DNA of 48,660 nucleotides from Planctomycetales bacterium (GTDB lineage Bacteria; Planctomycetota; Planctomycetia; Pirellulales; S012-138): the NCBI GenBank assembly GCA_015488215.1, contig WFOE01000236.1, positions 1-48,660 on the forward strand, read 5' to 3'. The translations under genes were made by a program, and so were the position numbers. Of the stretch, positions 2,740 to 48,660 are shown piece after piece; position 1 is the first letter of the stretch, and each line of letters opens with the position of its first letter. The notes below the pieces were generated by a model, which was given only the letters and a program-made list of their open reading frames with translations, had not been told where the DNA came from and did not search any database.

Positions 2740-3320
2740 TGGCACGTATTTACCTGGAAGGCGGCGGGAACCGCAATGAGCTAAGAGTGCGATGCCGCCA
2801 GGGGTTCCGAAAACTGCTGGAGCGGTGCGGGCTGGGCGGTCGCATGCCGCACCTGGTAGCCTGCGGTGGCCGCCAGGAAGCGTATAATCGCTTCGCCGGA
2901 CAAGACTTCGGCTCGGGCGAGTACGTGGCCCTGTGGGTCGATAGCGAACAGCCGGTCAAATCGCTCAACAAACCTTGGGCGCACGTGCAGCAACACGACG
3001 GCTGGGCGATTCCTTCGGGAGCCACCGACGACAACCTGCTGCTGGTCGTCACCTGCCTGGAAAGCTGGCTGGCGGCCGATTCCCAGACGTTGCAAAGTTA
3101 CTTCGGCTCCGGCTTTCGGCCGCAGGCGCTTCCCGCGGTCAACGCATTGGAACGCACCAACGCTCAGGCCACACTTGCCCGATTGAAACAGGCTACCGCC
3201 GGGTGCAACCCCTACCGCAAAAACAAGGCGTTTGAGTTGCTGGCACGGCTCAACCCCCAGGCGTTGTCGGCCCTGCCCGGCTTCCAGCGCTGCCTGGATG
3301 TGTTGCGAAAGAACTTATGA
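2739..3320 (+). CDS. DUF4276-family protein, Toprim-like partner of the upstream ATPase
   Basis: A 193-residue protein resembling DUF4276 (RloB-like). Visible family features are an N-terminal acidic strand (MARIYLEGGGNRNE, Glu7), a second acidic strand (ALWVDSEQ, Asp68 and Glu70) and the E-S-W-L-A-A-D motif at 108-114. The order Glu, then Asp-x-Glu, after hydrophobic strands recalls a Toprim metal site, so it may be a nuclease effector controlled by the ATPase; this is inference from motif layout. The start codon overlaps the stop codon of the ATPase gene. The C-terminal part (NPYRKNKAFELLARLNPQAL) fits the family. The next gene, glcD, starts 51 bases later and is probably unrelated in role. 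Confidence 0.82.
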   Translation: MARIYLEGGGNRNELRVRCRQGFRKLLERCGLGGRMPHLVACGGRQEAYNRFAGQDFGSGEYVALWVDSEQPVKSLNKPWAHVQQHDGWAIPSGATDDNLLLVVTCLESWLAADSQTLQSYFGSGFRPQALPAVNALERTNAQATLARLKQATAGCNPYRKNKAFELLARLNPQALSALPGFQRCLDVLRKNL

Positions 3321-3371
3321 GAAAGTGCGGTTTACTTCGTTTCCACCGCAAGACGAGCAAGGCAAGCTCCC

Positions 3372-4811
3372 ATGACCACAACCGATCTGCTGCCGCTGGT
3401 GGAGGAGCTGGAAGCATTGCTGGGCCCGGAAAACGTGCTGGCCCAGCACGCCGAGCTGGTGGTGTACGAGTGTGACGGCTACGTGGTGGAAAAGAACGTG
3501 CCGGACGTGGCCGTCTTTCCCCGCACCACGGAGCAGGTGAGCCAGGTGGTGCAGCTCTGCAACCGGTACGGGGTGCCGTTTCTGCCTCGGGGAGCCGGGA
3601 CCAGTCTGGCCGGAGGGGCGCTTGCCGCAGGCGGCGGGGTGATGATCGTGCTGACCCGGATGCGCGACATCCTGGAAATCAACCTTCGCGACCGCTACGC
3701 AGTGGTGGAGCCGGGCGTGGTCAACATCTGGCTTACCCACGCCCTGCGAGGCACGGGATTCCACTACGCGCCGGACCCTTCCAGCCAGGGCGCCTGCACC
3801 ATCGGCGGCAACGTGGCTACCAACTCCGGCGGGCCGCACACGCTCAAATACGGCGTGACCACCAACCACGTGCTGGCCCTGGAGGTGGTGTTGCCGGACG
3901 GCTCCGTGCACCGGCTCGGCTCCCCGGCCCCCGACACGCCGGGGCTGGACCTGGTGGGCACGCTGGTGGGCAGCGAAGGCACGCTGGCCATTGTGACCAA
4001 AGCCTGGGTCCGGCTTACCCGCGATCCGCAGGGCTATCGCACGCTGCTTGGCATCTTCGATTCGGTCGATCAGGCCACCGAGACGATCACGCAGATCATC
4101 GCCGCGGGAATCGTCCCAGCGGCCCTGGAGATGATGGACCAGGGTATCCTGGGCGCGTTGGAGGAAGCGTTCCACTTCGGTTTTCCGCTGGATGCCCGGG
4201 CCATCTTGCTCATCGAAGTGGACGGGCTGGAAGCCGGACTGGACGAGCAGCGTGACCGCATCGAAGCAATCTGCCGCCGCTGCGGAGCCCGCGAAGTTCG
4301 CCAGGCGGCCGACGCCCAGGAAAGGGCCGCCTTGTGGAAGTGCCGCAAACAGGCTTTCGGGGCCGTGGGCCGGCTAAGTCCCAGCTACTGCACCCAGGAC
4401 GGCGTGGTCCCACGCAGCAAACTGCCGCACATCCTGCGGCGGATTTACGAAATCGGCGGCAAGTACCGGCTGCGGATTGTCAACGTGTTCCACGCCGGGG
4501 ACGGAAACATCCATCCCATCTTGCTGTTCGACGAACGCGACCGGGAACAAGTGCGTCGGGTGCTTCAGGCCAGCGAGGAGATTCTGGAAGAATGTCTGGC
4601 CTGCGGCGGCAGCGTCACGGGCGAACACGGCATCGGGGTGGAAAAGATCAACTTCATGCATCGCATGTTTTCGCCCGAGTCGATTGCCGCCATGACCCGA
4701 CTGCGCCAAGCGTTCAATCCCACCGGCTGCTTGAGCCCGCACAAGATGCTGCCCACGGCCGGGGCTTGTTCCATCGAACAGGTTCACCCGGGCCGTCGGG
4801 CCGCGCTGTAA
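3372..4811 (+). CDS. glcD: FAD-linked oxidase, glycolate oxidase subunit GlcD-like
   Basis: Flavoprotein subunit of glycolate/D-lactate-type dehydrogenases, oxidising 2-hydroxy acids and passing electrons on through partner subunits. The N-terminal FAD-binding type-4 domain shows VAVFPRTTEQVSQVVQLCNRYGVPFLPRGAGTSLAGGA (about 47-85) and the nucleotide segment CTIGGNVATNSGGPHTLKYG; the C-terminal FAD-oxidase domain shows NVFHAGDGNIHPILLFD and GGSVTGEHGIGVEK. Its 479 residues match the usual GlcD length. The ATG at 3372 has an AAGG site about 10 bases upstream. A second FAD subunit (glcE) follows after 71 bases, but no iron-sulfur GlcF is present here. Confidence 0.94.
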   Translation: MTTTDLLPLVEELEALLGPENVLAQHAELVVYECDGYVVEKNVPDVAVFPRTTEQVSQVVQLCNRYGVPFLPRGAGTSLAGGALAAGGGVMIVLTRMRDILEINLRDRYAVVEPGVVNIWLTHALRGTGFHYAPDPSSQGACTIGGNVATNSGGPHTLKYGVTTNHVLALEVVLPDGSVHRLGSPAPDTPGLDLVGTLVGSEGTLAIVTKAWVRLTRDPQGYRTLLGIFDSVDQATETITQIIAAGIVPAALEMMDQGILGALEEAFHFGFPLDARAILLIEVDGLEAGLDEQRDRIEAICRRCGAREVRQAADAQERAALWKCRKQAFGAVGRLSPSYCTQDGVVPRSKLPHILRRIYEIGGKYRLRIVNVFHAGDGNIHPILLFDERDREQVRRVLQASEEILEECLACGGSVTGEHGIGVEKINFMHRMFSPESIAAMTRLRQAFNPTGCLSPHKMLPTAGACSIEQVHPGRRAAL

Positions 4812-9527: not shown

Positions 9528-11369
9528 TTACTCCGGTTCCTCAATCCGCAGCAGTTGGTCCAGCTTGTCGATGGTCAGGGATTGTTTCTTGCCGCAGGGC
9601 CAGGTGATTTCAAGTTGCACCTCTCCCTGGTATTTCCCCAGTCCGAAGGTGAGCGTGGACTCGCACTGCGATAGATAACTTCGCGTGGCCGAAACGCAGC
9701 GCCACTGCCGCAGCTTGCCGGCCGTCAGCGTCACTTCGGCCCCGTAGGCGTTCCGATTGCAATGCTTGCCCACCAGGTGCAGCCGCAGCCAATGATGGCC
9801 CAACTGCTGGTCGTTGCGCAGCACCCGGGGAGCGGAGCCAATGCCGGTGATGACCACGTCCAGGTCGCCGTCGCCGTCCAGGTCGCCGGCCACAATGCCG
9901 CGCCCGACGATGGGCTTGAAGAAGTCCGGCCCGCTGTCCTCCGGCTTCACTTCGATGAAATCGCACTGGGCCTTGCGGCTCATCGGCCCGCAGTTCCAGA
10001 ACAACTGCGGCGGCTGCGGATAGGTGAGGTCTTCTTCCGTGGCGGCGATGTCCGGCTCCACGTGCCCGTTGGCCTGGGCGAAGTCGAGCCAGCCGTCCAG
10101 GTCGTAGTCGAAGAAACAAACCCCAAAGGTGAGCGGTTTGGTCGTGGGCACGCCCAGGCCGGCCACCATCGCTTCGTCGCTGAAAACGTGGCTGCCAGGC
10201 TTGGAGACGAACAAGCCGGTCATTTCCCCGGAAAAATTGCCCACGGCAATGCCTAACGTGCCGTTGTTACGGAAATCGGCCGCGTCGATTCCCATCCCTG
10301 AGCGGGCAATTCCATAAGGACCGAAGGCCACCTGATACTCCTGCCCTACCTCGCGGAAGGTTCCGTCCTGCTGGTTGAGGAACAGGAAGTTGCGCACCGT
10401 ATCGTTGGCTACTACAATATCGCACCACCCGTCGCGGTTCACGTCCAGGAACACCACGCCCAGAGCCTTGCCCAACGGTTTGCCCTGTAAGTTGTTCACT
10501 TCGATACCGGCTTCCTGGGAAACGTCGCTGAAGACCCCATCGTCGTTGCGGAACAAGCGGCAGTGGGTTCCAGCGAACTGGCGCGGGTTGACCATCCCCC
10601 GCACGCCGTTTTCCAGCCGGAAGAACAAGCTTTCGTTGATTTCCTCGTTCCAGACCACATAGCGGCAAACAAACAGGTCCAAGTCGCCGTCGCGGTCGTA
10701 GTCGAGAAAGCCGCAACTGGTCTGGAACTCTTCCGGCGGAGCCCGCAGCCCCACCCGGTCCGTCACGTCCTCGAACCGCCCGTTGCCCAGGTTGCGAAAC
10801 ATGCGGGCTTCGCCCAGCAGGGCCGAAACGTACAGGTCGTTCCAGCCGTCGTTGTCATAATCGCCCACGGCCACGCCCAAGGCGTGCATGGTGACATCCA
10901 AGCCGGCTTCCTTCGTGACATTGGTAAAACGCCAGTTGCCGTCGTTACGATACAAGGCTTGTGTGGGCCGGTCGGTAGCTGCTCGGGACGAAGAAGGCCA
11001 AGGGGCGAAATTGGCAAAGAAGATGTCCAAGTCCCCGTCGTTGTCGTAGTCGAACAGCGCCACGCCGGCGGTCATAATCTCCGGCAGCAGCTTCCGACCG
11101 TCTGCGCCGCTTTCGTGAACAAAGTCGATCCCCGCTTCCTTGGTCACATCAACGAACCGAACTTTGGGAACTTGCACCACGCTACGAGGATCAGGAACCG
11201 GCTCCGGCGAAATGGAATCGAACTCGGTTATCTGGTCCACGTCGCCGGAGGCAGAAGCAACCCAGAACCAGATTCCCACACCGATTCCGCCGGCCACCAG
11301 CAAAAACGCCAAGGAGTAAAAGAACGCCCTGACAATAATATTGGAGTCGGCCCGAACAGCTTCGTTCAT
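9528..11369 (-). CDS. CRTAC1/UnbV family FG-GAP repeat protein, membrane-anchored
   Basis: A 613-residue protein with an N-terminal membrane anchor (about residues 12-38, AFFYSLAFLLVAGGIGVGIWFW) and an extracytoplasmic beta-propeller of FG-GAP/VCBS repeats. Calcium-loop signatures are abundant: DYDNDGDLD, DYDNDGWND, DYDRDGDLD, DVNRDGWCD, DYDLDGWLD and DLDGDGDLD. The C-terminal ASPIC/UnbV domain follows (HHWLRLHLVGKHCNRNAYGAEVTLTAG, then LTFGLGKYQGEVQLEITWPCGKKQ). The family is much expanded in planctomycetes, with unknown ligands; binding or adhesion is likely. The ATG at 11369 begins just before the anchor. The gene stands alone, with 158 bases to a secreted-protein promoter region downstream. 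Confidence 0.9.
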   Translation of the reverse strand: MNEAVRADSNIIVRAFFYSLAFLLVAGGIGVGIWFWVASASGDVDQITEFDSISPEPVPDPRSVVQVPKVRFVDVTKEAGIDFVHESGADGRKLLPEIMTAGVALFDYDNDGDLDIFFANFAPWPSSSRAATDRPTQALYRNDGNWRFTNVTKEAGLDVTMHALGVAVGDYDNDGWNDLYVSALLGEARMFRNLGNGRFEDVTDRVGLRAPPEEFQTSCGFLDYDRDGDLDLFVCRYVVWNEEINESLFFRLENGVRGMVNPRQFAGTHCRLFRNDDGVFSDVSQEAGIEVNNLQGKPLGKALGVVFLDVNRDGWCDIVVANDTVRNFLFLNQQDGTFREVGQEYQVAFGPYGIARSGMGIDAADFRNNGTLGIAVGNFSGEMTGLFVSKPGSHVFSDEAMVAGLGVPTTKPLTFGVCFFDYDLDGWLDFAQANGHVEPDIAATEEDLTYPQPPQLFWNCGPMSRKAQCDFIEVKPEDSGPDFFKPIVGRGIVAGDLDGDGDLDVVITGIGSAPRVLRNDQQLGHHWLRLHLVGKHCNRNAYGAEVTLTAGKLRQWRCVSATRSYLSQCESTLTFGLGKYQGEVQLEITWPCGKKQSLTIDKLDQLLRIEEPE

Positions 11370-11542
11370 GACACTGAGCCTACCCAGAAAGCGGAGACGA
11401 CGACTCCGAATGACGCGATATGATTGCAGGACTCATAGCTCCTGATTATTGTAAGCTGGACGGCAGGTACCGTCTAGCAACTTCTGCTCCGGCCGGGGCG
11501 GCTCGGAAAAAACAGCCTATCCCGCTCTATTACCCCCACCAA

Positions 11543-11573
11543 TGAAAAACGTCCCGAGCTCCTGGCCCGGGAC
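11543..11573 (-). terminator. rho-independent terminator of the BBP7 gene
   Basis: On the minus strand GTCCCGGG and CTCGGGAC form a GC-rich stem around a short loop (11573 down to 11551), followed directly by GTTTTTC. It lies 34 bases beyond the stop codon of the leftward BBP7 gene. Confidence 0.75.
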
Positions 11574-11606
11574 GCGGTCGCTTCAGTACCAAGAGGGGCA
11601 GCCGTC

Positions 11607-12803
11607 CTACCAAACGATCTCGGCTCCGCCCACGGCCGCCTGCATGAACAGGAAACCGTTGTGATCCAGCCGCGGAGTGCGGTAGGGGGAGAAGATGGGG
11701 TTGAACTGCTCGGGAGCGAGGGCCACCCCCTCCATGAACACCACCTGGTAGCCGACATAGACGGTGAAGTTGCAGGTAATCTGCCAGTTGATCGTCACCA
11801 GGGAGTCGCCCACCACGGCCGCCACGTCGTTACGGATGACTTCGTTGTGAATCGTGGGCGTGAAGTCTTCCCACAGCCGCGTGTGCTGCTTGGCGAAGTT
11901 GACCCCGGCGGCCACCTTGCCGTCCCAACGCATCATCCAGGTGGAACTCAGCGGAGCGGTGACCAGCCAGCCCAACTGGAAGCCGTAGATGTCGTTTTCG
12001 GTGCGGGTGTACATCTCGGCGTGGATGACGTTGAGCGTGGGCACGTTGTTATACACCCGGGCCCGGCCGCGGTAGGAAAGCTCTTCGTCCAGCGCCGTGT
12101 AGCGCAGGCCCATCATGATCGACACGTCGAAGGTGCGGAGGATTTTCCGCTTGAGCGGGTGCCAGTAGTTCAGCTCGAAGTTGTAGAAGTCGGAAGTATA
12201 TTCCAGCTCGTGAATGAACGCCTGGTCGAACCCGGGCACGGGACCTCCCAGTTCCAGTTGCAGTTCGGAAAAGAGGAGGTTGGCCGGGTCTTCGCGGGCG
12301 TGCAGAAAGTCCCAATCCTCCACGCCGTAAAAGACTCCTTCGATGCTGTCCCGGTCGCCGATGCGGCGTTCCACGCCGATGCGCAATCCGTTTTCCGGCT
12401 CGAACTCGATGGAATCCCGGTCGATGGCCACCGGGCCGACGTTGTCGAACAACCGCCGGCTGAAGGCCACGTAGTCGGAAACTTCCCGATGAATGTACAG
12501 GTAATCGGACCGCACGCGCCACAGCCCGCCGTAAACCGTCTGGCCGTCGAAGCCTTCCAAGGGGGCGTACTCCGGCGCGGTCCCCTCGCCCTGGTCCGAG
12601 TACTGGTCGGCCGGAATGGGTGTCAGGGGAGTAGGCCCCGCCAAAACCGTGCCCGCCGGTACCACTTGCGGCCCGACTGGTGGCATCGCCCCCGGAACGC
12701 CATAGGGGGAGACCACGGGCATTTGGGCCGAAGCGGTCCCGACCAGCAGCGCCCAACCGGCCAGGCTGCACAGAGCCACGATGCAGAAGCGAGTCCCTCT
12801 CAC
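11607..12803 (-). CDS. BBP7 family outer membrane beta-barrel protein
   Basis: A 398-residue exported protein resembling the planctomycete BBP7 family of outer-membrane beta-barrels. It has a signal peptide (CIVALCSLAGWALLVGTASA, cleavage before QMPVV), a proline-rich linker with GPTPLTPIPADQYS, and a C-terminal barrel with alternating aromatic strands (WRVRSDYLYIHREVSDYVAFSR, FQLGWLVTAPLSSTWMMRWDGKVAAGVNF, FTVYVGYQVVFMEGVAL). It ends in tryptophan rather than the usual phenylalanine. The GTG at 12803 has GGGAGG 8 bases upstream. A strong terminator follows the gene, so it is probably monocistronic. Pore activity is not shown by the sequence. Confidence 0.85.
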   Translation of the reverse strand: MRGTRFCIVALCSLAGWALLVGTASAQMPVVSPYGVPGAMPPVGPQVVPAGTVLAGPTPLTPIPADQYSDQGEGTAPEYAPLEGFDGQTVYGGLWRVRSDYLYIHREVSDYVAFSRRLFDNVGPVAIDRDSIEFEPENGLRIGVERRIGDRDSIEGVFYGVEDWDFLHAREDPANLLFSELQLELGGPVPGFDQAFIHELEYTSDFYNFELNYWHPLKRKILRTFDVSIMMGLRYTALDEELSYRGRARVYNNVPTLNVIHAEMYTRTENDIYGFQLGWLVTAPLSSTWMMRWDGKVAAGVNFAKQHTRLWEDFTPTIHNEVIRNDVAAVVGDSLVTINWQITCNFTVYVGYQVVFMEGVALAPEQFNPIFSPYRTPRLDHNGFLFMQAAVGGAEIVW

Positions 12804-44127: not shown

Positions 44128-44696
44128 TGCAGAAGGTGCTTTTCTGTCAGGAAGACACAGCAGGCCAGTCCAGGATATTCGTATTCTTGTCTGCCCGGGG
44201 CAGAAGCGGGAGGGGGCCGAAAAAGTTTCAACAGGTACCATGTTTTGGAACCGACGCGATGGCACAGTTTCCTGCCCCTTCCGCCGACTATGGTGGGCGT
44301 GGAGGCTTGGGGGCGTGGGGAGATGAGGTGGGTGGTTCCGCACCGGGCGGAAAAACAAACGCAACCGTAGATTCTCGGCAACGGCAACGGCGAGCCGCCG
44401 ACTTGAGTCGGCGGAGCAACAGCGAGCCGGGAGCGTAAGCTTCCGGAGGACGGCACGACTGTCCGCCACTGGGAGCTTCCGCTCCAGTACAAGAATTCGC
44501 GTTTATTCACACAATCGGACCTCCCCGGACTAAAGTCCGACGCTTGCGGAAGCGCCGAGTCGCGTCGTCTGCTGATTTGCTCGAAAACGATTGGCCGGGC
44601 AGGCGTCTCAGCTCAGCTCCCCCAAGCAAGAATCTCCGGCAACAATCGGCAACAAAAAGCTGGCCCCCGACGCCGCCCAGGCGATACACTGCCAGC
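44128..44696. other. gene-free region between divergent hisH and the signal peptidase gene
   Basis: About 570 bases without a supported gene. The left 210 bases contain nothing I can name; the rest is a family A repeat cluster. The hisH promoter should be here on the minus strand, but none is clear. Confidence 0.5.
44340..44600 (-). repeat. dispersed repeat family A, minus-strand cluster
   Basis: Contains the reverse marker GGAGCTTCCGCTCC (44472-44485), hairpin CCGCCGACTTGAGTCGGCGG (44395-44414), AAGAATTCGCGTTTATTC (about 44491-44508) and GGACTAAAGTCC (44528-44539). Read on the minus strand, the marker is followed by CAGTGGCGGACAGTCGTGCC, matching the modules at 6.3 kb. An A-rich GGAAAAACAAACGCAACC (from 44349) and TTTGCTCGAAAACGATTGGC (from 44576) have relatives in the 48-kb cluster. 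Confidence 0.75.
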
Positions 44697-46001
44697 ATGA
44701 TGGCCAAAGTGCTGCGCTTTTCCAGCGAGATGATGTTGCTGGGGATTCTGGGGCTGCTGCTGGTGCGCGGGCTGGTGTTCTCCTGGCACCGCGTAGAGGG
44801 GCCTTCGATGCTGCCCCATTACTGGGGCGGCGGACTCCAGCGCCGTTGCCCGGAATGCGGCTGGCTCATCCGCATAGCCTATCCCACGGGAAGACAAAAG
44901 CCGTTTTGGGCCCAGTGCCCCCTGTGTTCCCTGGCCCCGGTAGCGTTCGACCGGGCCCGGTTCACCCGGGGCGAGCTGCTTCTGCTGCCGCGGCTGGGCC
45001 ACCCCGGGGGCAAGTTGCGGCTCTGGCAACCGGTCCTCCTGCGCCATCCCCGGCAAGGGGCGCGCGTGCTGCTAAAGCGCATTGCCGGACTCCCGGGCCA
45101 GCAGGTGGGCCTGCTCCGGGGCAATCTGGTCATCGACGGGCAAGTGGCCCCTAAACCCGCCCGGCTGTGGAGAAAACTGCTCGTGCTGGTGCACGACAGC
45201 CGCTACCAGCACAACGCCCCCTGGGCCAGCGGGTGGAAGACCGACTCCCCGTGCTGGCGCCTGACTCCCCAGGCATTTCACTTCCAAGTGCCGCAGCGTC
45301 CCGGTGGCCGCGTTTCCGGTTCGCCCCCGGACAGCAACATCCACTGGATCGGCTACCAGCGCCGAAGCGGCCCCTTGCCGCACCGCAGTTCCGGGCAACC
45401 TGTGCCGCTTGTCGATACGCTGGGCGAAAACCAGGCGCTGCCCCGACGCCGCGAATCGATCCATCTGGTTAGCGAACTCTGGCTGGAGTGCCAGCTTCGC
45501 TGGAGTAGCCCGGGCACGCTGTTGCTCGAACTCGAAGTTCCCGCCGGAAAGCTCCAGTTGCAACTCAAGGCCCAGGAACAGAAGGCCATCCTCCGGCTGA
45601 ACGGGCAACGGCTGGATGCCTTCCCTGCGCCGGAACCGGACGGGCGGCTTTGGCATCTGGGGCTGGCCTGGCTGGACGGGCATCTCTGGTGCCAAGTAAA
45701 CGACCGCCTGTGGAAACACCCCCTGGAAGCCAAGCCCCCGGACGCCCAAGCTCCCCGGCCCGTGGCGGCCCGGATTGGAGCCGCTTCTGGCGCCGGCCAG
45801 CTTTTGCGGGTGCGGCTTTGGCGCGACGTGTACTATCTGGCTCCCGACGGACAAGCCCGGTACGATTTCGGCCGGGTGCCCCCTGGCCACGTGCTGGTGC
45901 TGGGGGACAATAGCTTCCAGAGCGAAGACAGCCGCACGTGGCCTTCGCCCTGGGTCCCGATGGAGCTGGTCCTGGGCGTGCCGTTGCGGCTTGGGCCCTA
46001 G
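44697..46001 (+). CDS. lepB: signal peptidase I with two cysteine pairs and a large beta-rich insertion
   Basis: A 434-residue membrane-bound serine/lysine protease removing Sec signal peptides, much longer than usual. It has one N-terminal membrane segment (EMMLLGILGLLLVRGLVFSW), the box B catalytic serine GPSMLPHYW (Ser37), the box D lysine RVLLKRIAGLPGQQVG (Lys127) and the box E GDNSFQSEDSR near 403. Between boxes B and D are two cysteine pairs (CPECG at 51-54, CPLC at 74-77), zinc-ribbon-like. Between D and E lie about 240 residues, including a jelly-roll-like beta domain (SELWLECQLRWSSPGTLLLELEVPAGK to RVRLWRDVYYLAPDG). The start is ATGATG 44697/44700. moeA follows closely. Confidence 0.85.
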   Translation: MMAKVLRFSSEMMLLGILGLLLVRGLVFSWHRVEGPSMLPHYWGGGLQRRCPECGWLIRIAYPTGRQKPFWAQCPLCSLAPVAFDRARFTRGELLLLPRLGHPGGKLRLWQPVLLRHPRQGARVLLKRIAGLPGQQVGLLRGNLVIDGQVAPKPARLWRKLLVLVHDSRYQHNAPWASGWKTDSPCWRLTPQAFHFQVPQRPGGRVSGSPPDSNIHWIGYQRRSGPLPHRSSGQPVPLVDTLGENQALPRRRESIHLVSELWLECQLRWSSPGTLLLELEVPAGKLQLQLKAQEQKAILRLNGQRLDAFPAPEPDGRLWHLGLAWLDGHLWCQVNDRLWKHPLEAKPPDAQAPRPVAARIGAASGAGQLLRVRLWRDVYYLAPDGQARYDFGRVPPGHVLVLGDNSFQSEDSRTWPSPWVPMELVLGVPLRLGP

Positions 46002-46028: not shown

Positions 46029-47300
46029 ATGAACGCTTCCGGTGATCGTGCGCCTGCGGATGTGCGTATGCGAGGGTTTGCTCGCCGCCACACGGTCGAG
46101 CAGGCATGGCAGTGGATCGACCAGCACACCCAGCCGTTACCCTCGGTTACCGTGCCGCTGGCCGAAGCCGCCGGCCGGGTGCTGGCCCAACAGGTGGTCA
46201 GCCCACTGGATGTCCCTTCGTTCCCCCGGGCGATGATGGACGGTTACGCCTTACGGGGCGAGGAAACTCAAGGGGCCAGCCCTTACAACCCGTTGGAGTT
46301 TTCCGTGGTAGGCCAGTCGTTGCCCGGGCGACCCTGGCCAGGAAACGTGGGACCGGGCCAGTGTGTGCGAATCATGACCGGGGCTCCCATGCCGGCCGGA
46401 GCCGACGCCGTGCTGCCGGTGGAACAGACCCAGTGCCAGGGCCAGGTGATGCTGGCCCACGGCGAAGTGCCGCCGCAGAAGAACGTGGGCCAGGTGGCCG
46501 AAGACATCGCCCAGGGGCAGACGCTGTTCGAACCCCCGCGACGACTGCGGCCGCAAGACCTGGGCGTGCTCAGTTCGTTGGGCCTGGCGTTTTTGGAAGT
46601 GGTGCGGCGCCCCCGGGTGAAAATCCTCATCACCGGCAACGAGCTGGTCCCCCCGGGCCAGCCCAAGGGCCCATACGCCATCTACGATGCCAACGGGCCC
46701 ATGCTTCAGGCGCTGGTCCAACGCGACGGGGCCGAACTCACCGGCCGCCACATGGTGGCCGACGAAGAAGCGAAGCTCCGCGAACACTTGCAAGACCCGC
46801 AAGCCGACGTGGTGCTCATCTCCGGCGGTTCCAGCGTGGGTCAGGAAGACCTGGCCCCGCAACTGGTGGCCCAACTGGGCCAGTTGGCCATCCACGGCCT
46901 GGCGATGCGGCCCAGCAGTCCAGCCGGAATGGGACAAATCGGCTCGGCGCTGGTGTTTCTCCTGCCGGGCAATCCGGTTTCGTGCCTCTGCGCCTACGAC
47001 TTCTTTGCCGGCCGGGCGATTCGCCGCCTAGGCGGTCTGCCGGCCCAGTGGCCCTACCCGCAGGTACGTTTGCCTCTGGCCCGCAAGCTGGTTTCCCAGG
47101 TGGGCCGGACCGACTACGCCCGCGTGGTGCTGCAACCCGACGGAACGGTCAGCCCTCTGGCCGTAAGCGGGGCTTCGATTCTCTCTTCGACCACCCGGGC
47201 CGACGGGTTCGTAATCGTTCCTGAAGACAGCGAAGGCTACCCGGAAGGAACCCCGGTCGATGTGTTCTTTTACGACGCTTCCGTATCTCCTGGTCCGTAG
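46029..47300 (+). CDS. moeA: molybdopterin molybdenumtransferase
   Basis: Inserts molybdate into adenylylated molybdopterin, completing the molybdenum cofactor. The 423 residues show the N-terminal AMMDGYAL (about 70-77), IMTGAPMPAGADAVLPVEQT, the MoaB/Mog-like domain with VKILITGNELVPPG, YDANGPML and ISGGSSVGQED (normally SGGVSVG, one substitution), LPGNPVSCL, and the C-terminal beta barrel ending GTPVDVFFYDA. Length and domain order are typical. It begins 27 bases after the signal peptidase gene and is probably co-transcribed. A molybdenum or tungsten enzyme in this cell would be consistent with the retained FhcB ligand cysteine. Confidence 0.93.
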   Translation: MNASGDRAPADVRMRGFARRHTVEQAWQWIDQHTQPLPSVTVPLAEAAGRVLAQQVVSPLDVPSFPRAMMDGYALRGEETQGASPYNPLEFSVVGQSLPGRPWPGNVGPGQCVRIMTGAPMPAGADAVLPVEQTQCQGQVMLAHGEVPPQKNVGQVAEDIAQGQTLFEPPRRLRPQDLGVLSSLGLAFLEVVRRPRVKILITGNELVPPGQPKGPYAIYDANGPMLQALVQRDGAELTGRHMVADEEAKLREHLQDPQADVVLISGGSSVGQEDLAPQLVAQLGQLAIHGLAMRPSSPAGMGQIGSALVFLLPGNPVSCLCAYDFFAGRAIRRLGGLPAQWPYPQVRLPLARKLVSQVGRTDYARVVLQPDGTVSPLAVSGASILSSTTRADGFVIVPEDSEGYPEGTPVDVFFYDASVSPGP

Positions 47301-47485
47301 CCCCGGTAAGGTTCCAACCAGAATCTTCAAACGCGCCGAAGGCCCAGCAACTTGCGACGAGAAAACTCCCTTTCGGTGTGCAACGCCACCAAGAGTCCTT
47401 GAACGCTTCGATTGCGCATTTCGACGAGCCTCGGGGTTCAGGCTGGGAATAACCGACATTTCGGCTTCTTCTTATCCTGGAGCAA

Positions 47486-47529
47486 CGCCACCCGCGTTTG
47501 CTCAAAGAGCAATTGCTACCCACTAAAAG
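47486..47529. repeat. left arm of an imperfect inverted repeat flanking the AT-rich orphan gene
   Basis: CGCCACCCGCGTTTGCTC and the following AGCAATTGCT (itself palindromic, 47508-47517) align, about two thirds identical by eye, with the reverse complement of 48081-48125. Confidence 0.6.
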
Positions 47530-47540
47530 TGCCAAGCCCA

Positions 47541-48077
47541 ATGGGACGACAAATCAACTTCTACATGACGCATAAAGATGAGCTTGATTTTATTGAGTTC
47601 GCAAAATCAGATCGTGACATCTGTATATTCGCTGACCGAGCAACCACACCAGACCCGAAATGTCTCGGAGAACTCCCGCGGGAGGACATTCCCGGCTGGT
47701 TCGTTGTCTGGCTATGGGATCAAAGCAATAGCCCGCGGCCCATTTGGAAGTTCATTGAAGAACAGGAGCATTATGTAGTTGATCCCTTCGAATCTGAAAT
47801 TATAGAGTTCTGGCGAAGCACTTTTTATCGAGGGCACCTCGTCCGCGGAAGGATATGGGCAGAGATGTCTTTCGTGGACCCGAAGGACCCTTCCAAAGTT
47901 GTATCCAAGAAAGAGAGTTTCCGACGATGGTTCAATCGTCTTGCCAATTGGATAAGACGTAATTCGGTGCGGGATGCTGCAGGAGACTACTTGCTTCCTG
48001 GCGCTGCCGAGTTCGTTAAGAAGGGAGGGAAAACAGTGCAGGCGATCCTTGGGAACGGAAGCTTTCTTCCAGGTTGA
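47541..48077 (+). CDS. orphan hypothetical protein of atypical base composition
   Basis: A 178-residue protein beginning MGRQINFYMTHKDELDFIEF, with many aromatic and acidic residues (GWFVVWLWDQSNSPRPIWKFIEEQEHYVVDPFESEIIEFWRSTFYRGHLVRGRIW). No signal peptide or membrane segment; likely cytoplasmic. I know of no named family, though this kind of N-terminus is reminiscent of small proteins found scattered in bacterial accessory regions. Codon use is much more AT-rich at third positions than in its neighbours (for example GAT GAG CTT GAT TTT ATT), a sign of recent acquisition. The ATG at 47541 is preceded by CCAAGCCCA, without a strong ribosome site. Confidence 0.75.
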   Translation: MGRQINFYMTHKDELDFIEFAKSDRDICIFADRATTPDPKCLGELPREDIPGWFVVWLWDQSNSPRPIWKFIEEQEHYVVDPFESEIIEFWRSTFYRGHLVRGRIWAEMSFVDPKDPSKVVSKKESFRRWFNRLANWIRRNSVRDAAGDYLLPGAAEFVKKGGKTVQAILGNGSFLPG

Positions 48078-48080
48078 CGT

Positions 48081-48260
48081 GTTGCTAAGTGGCCAACAAT
48101 TTGCTTTAGAGCAGACTCGGCGGCGAGTCGCCGACTTCAGTCGGCGGAGCATGACACGGCCGTCGGTGGCTGGCTGCTTCCGCATCAATGCAAGAATAAG
48201 CGTTTATACTCGCACTCGCCGAGACTCGACCTTTAGCTCGGAGGGAAAAACAACCGCAAA
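48081..48260 (-). repeat. dispersed repeat family A with right arm of the inverted repeat
   Basis: Starts with the inverted-repeat arm (48081-48125), then the hairpin CGCCGACTTCAGTCGGCG (48129-48146), the reverse marker GCTTCCGCATC (about 48173-48183), an AT-rich hairpin (TGCAAGAATAAGCG, then a near-complementary TTATACTCGCA) and GGAAAAACAACCGC. The module order resembles that of the 44-kb cluster. Confidence 0.7.
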
Positions 48261-48307
48261 CGCTCTTCCTTCGGACACTTGCACAACCTTCTCCTAGGGC
48301 CGGTACC

Positions 48308-48660
48308 GTGTTGGCGATCGCCGTGGCCCAATACGGTGCCTCGAACATCACCGAAGGAATCACCACGATGATCCATCGGGGGGGCGGGATCAATCCTGGC
48401 CAGTGGGCGACCGAACAGGTCGTTACGACCGTAGCCGGCGAAGAGCACCGCTGGCTGGGCACGCTCCTTTACCGCGGCGGCGAGCTGGCCGTCGATCTCA
48501 AAGCCGCCCATCACCTGGCCACCCACCCGAGAGCAATTGGCGAGGTTGCCAGAACCGCGGATCGGGCGCATGATGTAGCCCATACCGCCGATAACGCGGC
48601 CGACGCCGCAGTCCCTATCAAACCCTCTCGTTCCCACCATGTTCTAGACCCGGCCTCCGA
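48308..48660 (+). CDS. partial open reading frame at right edge, possible displaced RHS/polymorphic-toxin fragment
   Basis: 117 codons from GTG 48308 stay open to the window edge and use host-like, GC-rich codons, unlike the opposite-strand frame. The sequence is LAIAVAQYGASNITEGITTM, then HRWLGTLLYRGGELAVDLKAAHHLATHPRAIGEVARTADRAHDVAHTADNAADAAVP. The alanine-rich helical run resembles the region ahead of the toxin tip in large RHS-type proteins; this is inference from style, not a family match. GTG 48308 has AGGG about 8 bases upstream, but it could be a truncated piece of a longer gene. The end lies outside the window. Confidence 0.45.
   Translation, partial: MLAIAVAQYGASNITEGITTMIHRGGGINPGQWATEQVVTTVAGEEHRWLGTLLYRGGELAVDLKAAHHLATHPRAIGEVARTADRAHDVAHTADNAADAAVPIKPSRSHHVLDPAS

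Follow-up and report, generated by a model that had tools for sequence, protein, structure and literature searches.

An AT-rich gene framed by repeat arms in a planctomycete-like genome as a probable orphan immunity gene of a polymorphic-toxin system

The AT-rich gene and the repeats beside it

A small gene near the end of a planctomycete-like contig raises the question of what it encodes and how it came to stand alone between two inverted repeat arms. The window analyzed here (48,660 nucleotides) is one entire contig (C236) of a draft genome, G000, which comprises 303 contigs and is 96.5% complete. The reading frame of the gene, termed P0001, is open and intact (Table 1). As the initial annotation had observed, its base composition is unlike that of its neighbors, with a GC content of 49% versus 64% for the window and a third-position GC content of 50% versus 77 to 80% in the two genes preceding it. 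P0001 is also foreign looking and lineage specific, being missing at the same place in sister genomes: G001, G002, and G004 have no such gene after moeA, and their downstream gene order differs. The contig itself ends 583 bp past P0001.

Table 1. Positions of features in the 48,660-nucleotide window
Feature	Position	Strand	Remarks
Right end (RE) of another element copy	44550..44610	+	TTTGCTC...GATTGGC piece
moeA-like gene	46029..47300	+	Conserved left neighbor (82% amino acid identity with G002, of the same genus); bounds the lineage-specific region on the left
37-bp stretch	47322..47358	+	Sole other genome match at C181:10508-10544, upstream of the polymorphic-toxin ORF; 84% identity, E=3.9e-4, weak
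Left arm	47486..47524	-	Solo truncated left end (LE) of candidate MITE-like element; core motif 47496-47524; outer tip towards P0001
P0001	47541..48077	+	178 aa; probable orphan immunity protein
Right arm	48081..48125	+	Left end (LE) of second candidate MITE-like element; core motif 48088-48116; outer tip towards P0001; outer TAG kept
Palindromic interior repeat of element	48121..48268	+	>40 places in genome; no right end before toxin fragment
Toxin-like fragment	48297..48529	+	233 bp, 99% identical (231/233) to an internal part of a polymorphic-toxin-like ORF, C181:12080-12312
Divergent continuation of fragment frame	48530..48660	+	Alternative C-terminal side; cut by contig end

Alignment of the flanks paired positions 47486-47524 with 48088-48125 in opposite orientation. 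Taken singly, this pair is only marginal, as 10 to 16 of 1,000 dinucleotide shuffles scored equally well. Both arms, however, carry a 29-bp motif (GTYTGCTCN7AATTGYTNNCCACT) with zero mismatches, and the genome holds 27 matches to it at ≤3 mismatches, compared with 0 for the reversed motif and 0.02 expected in the window; the arms are therefore real. Matches in four relatives were few and poor. When the flanks were compared with the repeat loci, both arms also matched a third and a fourth copy elsewhere. The right arm continues into the repeat family of 6.3 and 44.4 kb (query position 742 onward; >40 places genome-wide), and the related piece at 44.58 kb proved to be the opposite end of an element of this type. 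Thus, the initial annotation was correct in regarding the arms as inverted and in linking them to these repeats.

We read the family to which the arms belong as a dispersed MITE-like element. One side of most copies leads into palindromic intergenic repeats, and the opposite side terminates with an outer TAG beside a gene. A second end type, GCGTCTGCTGATTTGCTCAAAGACTATTGACCGGGTACTTAG, closes the same elements. Aligned as imperfect inverted repeats, the consensus left and right ends outscore every one of 2,000 shuffled versions, with single copies mostly marginal. An outer TAG is present in 15/24 left ends, which suggests TA/CTAG targets. Such targets recall IS630 elements. Like MITEs and REP-type intergenic repeats, the element is dispersed, noncoding, and intergenic, with a palindromic interior and imperfect inverted ends bearing an outer TAG/TA; unlike them, it has an interior that varies (about 0.2 to 0.7 kb) and is made of palindromic units. 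An arm-motif search recognized no copies in same-genus genomes. An Rfam search gave no match, and integron-type features were rejected. Eight further contigs (C49, C84, C95, C97, C107, C171, C16, and C252) start or end within or beside the element; with many contigs ending in or near copies, it is a main cause of the fragmentation of the draft.

A predicted toxin domain in front of homologues

Searches of Pfam, NCBIfam, PADLOC, and PHROGs with P0001 retrieved no match. Twelve homologues compared with Pfam were equally without a match, and a named Imm family is lacking, which is a matter of naming and not of function. The family is rare and patchy (2/58 near relatives and 14/398 genomes of the class), with homologues occurring in diverse phyla. 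Neither P0001 nor its homologue from G368 gave a match in plasmid tblastn searches, and a scan of named genomes with P0001 alone found nothing.

Scanning the named genomes with a three-sequence profile retrieved nine loci. In seven of them, the homologue starts 1 to 22 bp past the stop codon of a larger ORF, and these larger ORFs all end in one common domain (alignment A5; NPxGKxGG...R[FY]xDxV...Q[VI]G...RERxAI). A locus left out of profile building (L084) also carries this domain upstream (E=1.1e-4), providing an eighth, independent case, while the domain occurs in none of the control loci. The paired loci span Planctomycetota, Poribacteria, and Firmicutes. Their carriers are varied: L114 contains RHS repeats (2.5e-8), the toxin of L072 contains a PT-HINT region (4.9e-8), and L113 is a bare 101-aa toxin cassette. 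The closest relative of P0001, from a Phycisphaerales MAG, shares 35% identity over its full length and is encoded 13 bp behind an RHS toxin. A gene order of toxin followed by immunity protein has been described for polymorphic toxins (PMC3482391), and the relatives of P0001 behind the A5 domain show the same arrangement. Identity between P0001 and the paired homologues is 18 to 35%, a level at which its specificity may differ from theirs.

The A5 domain matched no Pfam or NCBIfam model, and PDB profile searches with the P0001 family and with the A5 toxin yielded nothing convincing. Eight loci (L113 at 3131-3974, L114, L115, L116, L118, L119, L072, and L084) combine this toxin C-terminal domain with the immunity family, both of which are unnamed in Pfam and NCBIfam. 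Two of them, L118 and L119 from Lachnospiraceae, contain tandem RHS-type toxin tips with a different small ORF after each, i.e., arrays of toxin-immunity pairs. At another locus (L074 of G691, 263-1191), a close P0001 homologue lies beside REP-associated-transposase-like fragments without the toxin domain and represents another orphan.

Structure prediction from the single P0001 sequence was useless (pLDDT of 34). An AlphaFold2 model built with ten homologues was confident (mean pLDDT of 91.7 and pTM of 0.87). A Foldseek search of the PDB with this model gave no match at E<=0.001, and the listed matches had TM-scores of <0.3 by query length. Judging from this predicted model and one search, the family possibly adopts an undescribed fold. 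We lean slightly towards a broader reading, namely, a new immunity family, with a fold absent from the PDB, whose partner is an equally new nuclease-like toxin domain common to Planctomycetota, Poribacteria, and Firmicutes, with the immunity half kept alone here as a defense against neighbors.

The profile search with A5 found 0 matches in G000 and none in G001 or G002, and no remnant of the cognate toxin was found upstream of P0001 or in the window. With the toxin domain absent from its own 96.5%-complete genome, P0001 is therefore regarded as an orphan immunity gene; a toxin may be encoded in the portion that the draft lacks.

The contig end and a possible insertion

The toxin-like fragment downstream of P0001 probably belongs to a different polymorphic toxin. 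The ORF on contig C181 that it matches has an AT-rich 3' part (GC content of 52% versus 65%) and is followed directly by an AT-rich 211-aa ORF (51%). The GC content of P0001 resembles the values of this tip and of the putative immunity gene behind it and is unlike that of the host. Relatives of the central part of the C181 ORF in G001 and G028 contain HINT-like or Hint/PT-HINT regions, one being a Hint/PT-HINT protein that matches AHH weakly. We read the C181 ORF and the 211-aa ORF as a putative polymorphic toxin and its immunity gene, of which the copy on C236 would be a 5'-truncated toxin fragment. An assignment of the contig-end fragment to Ntox27 was rejected as too weak (E=0.015 and 0.086), covering 28 residues. 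At the C181 locus itself (L035, 10742-12678), the N-terminal LExR-LLA-type segment (10742-11284) and the rest (10894-12678) are in different frames, reflecting an assembly error or decay. The 37-bp C181 match after moeA is given little weight.

Gene order in G002 runs moeA, a DUF3592-like gene, and trpC in a row. In G000, the DUF3592-like gene and trpC lie at the end of contig C252, the last bases of which are repeat sequence. The simplest reading is that a toxin/immunity island was probably inserted between moeA and the DUF3592-like gene and left unclosed by the assembler. The join of C236 and C252 follows from gene order in G002 and is not assembled; the borders of the island are correspondingly putative. 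Elsewhere in the window, a signal-peptidase-like ORF (44544-46001) has, as judged by eye, a start that resembles a zinc ribbon (CxxC...CxxC), and a long insert separates its conserved peptidase parts.

Explanations for the lone gene

Taken together, P0001 is very probably the immunity protein of a polymorphic-toxin system, orphaned in that its cognate toxin is gone, and likely arrived in an island after moeA. Counting against this explanation, some distant homologues are unpaired or accompany other toxins, and neither a promoter nor a ribosome-binding site is evident upstream of P0001. The unpaired homologues are also what favors an alternative in which P0001 has a housekeeping or stress function with no link to toxins and its position behind toxin genes in some genomes is coincidental, as several stand alone with no toxin nearby. 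We consider such a coincidence quite improbable, given that the homologues were retrieved on sequence alone, that seven of the nine begin no more than 22 bp past one shared toxin domain in three phyla, and that no control locus contains this domain.

The initial annotation had instead proposed a mobile cassette, in which the arms serve as terminal inverted repeats around a single cargo gene moved by a transposase in trans. Much of its basis stands: the arms are inverted and related, the gene is AT rich, foreign looking, and lineage specific, and inward-facing motif pairs recur on C88, C97, and C107 (the C107 pair lying 25 kb apart). The arms nonetheless fail as cassette ends. Their outer tips (CTAAGT) point at P0001 on both sides, i.e., inside-out for a cassette; because these are the tips of left ends, P0001 lies between two elements and inside neither. 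Furthermore, the left arm is only a solo end, broken off after about 40 to 50 bp. The inward pairs on C88 and C97 surround ordinary genes, in one case a region with phosphoglycerate kinase (pgk, recognized by reading the ORF) and in the other ferredoxin/NapH-like genes, both with host-like GC contents (66 to 67%). The arms therefore do not define cargo, and no second cassette, or cargo gene bounded by arms, was found. A Y1 (REP-type, REP-associated) transposase is also absent from the genome and was rejected as the mover. Identity as a polymorphic-toxin immunity protein, together with the adjoining toxin fragment, explains the composition and patchy occurrence of P0001 without the arms. The cassette is thus largely refuted and very improbable. 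A role for the elements of another kind, in which recombination between MITE copies removed the toxin half and left an immunity gene, whether brought in or isolated, framed by element ends, is possible but on balance unlikely. It would fit a truncated left copy that stops 16 bp before the P0001 start codon, where the toxin stop codon lies in relatives (1 to 22 bp), and a right element that passes into the toxin fragment without its right end. Neither an intermediate nor an empty site was seen, however, and copies of the element are common in intergenic spaces in any case.

For the preferred explanation, an orphan immunity protein, the sequence of events may be outlined as follows. In relatives, the immunity gene forms the second half of a toxin-immunity pair, behind a nuclease-like domain at the C terminus of RHS, HINT-containing, or bare-cassette proteins. 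In this genome, the cognate toxin would have been lost, leaving P0001 alone after moeA beside a 5'-truncated fragment of another polymorphic toxin. The gene probably arrived with a toxin/immunity island that entered between moeA and the DUF3592-like gene, and the flanking arms would be ends of the dispersed MITE-like element that has accumulated in these intergenic spaces. If expressed, P0001 would bind the toxin domain delivered by neighbors that still carry the toxin and in this way shield the cell.

There is precedent for this kind of locus, as CDI and Rhs loci are known to include orphan CT/immunity modules (PMC3150448; PMC3482391). Like orphan cdiI/rhsI genes and displaced CT-immunity modules, P0001 is a small AT-rich immunity gene without its own toxin, near a toxin fragment that lacks its 5' part, of foreign composition, and lineage specific (PMC3150448). 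It differs in that no complete cdiA or rhs gene precedes it, its place being after moeA, and in that a MITE-like element separates it from the toxin fragment. The paired loci similarly share with PT-HINT/RHS polymorphic toxin systems (Zhang et al. 2012, PMC3482391) the toxin-immunity order, HINT or RHS carriers, toxin-tip exchange at the 3' end, and standalone cassettes, whereas the A5 toxin domain and the immunity family described here are without a Pfam or NCBIfam model. What is new is this particular toxin-immunity family, unnamed in the libraries; the orphan immunity gene itself is a known kind of thing.

More generally, a foreign gene can be flanked by inverted arms that are the ends of unrelated dispersed repeats and not the borders of a cassette. 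The analysis defines a toxin-immunity pair, unnamed by Pfam and NCBIfam, across distant phyla, and it gives a previously anonymous orphan gene a predicted role that can be tested, that of a defense protein against a named toxin domain.
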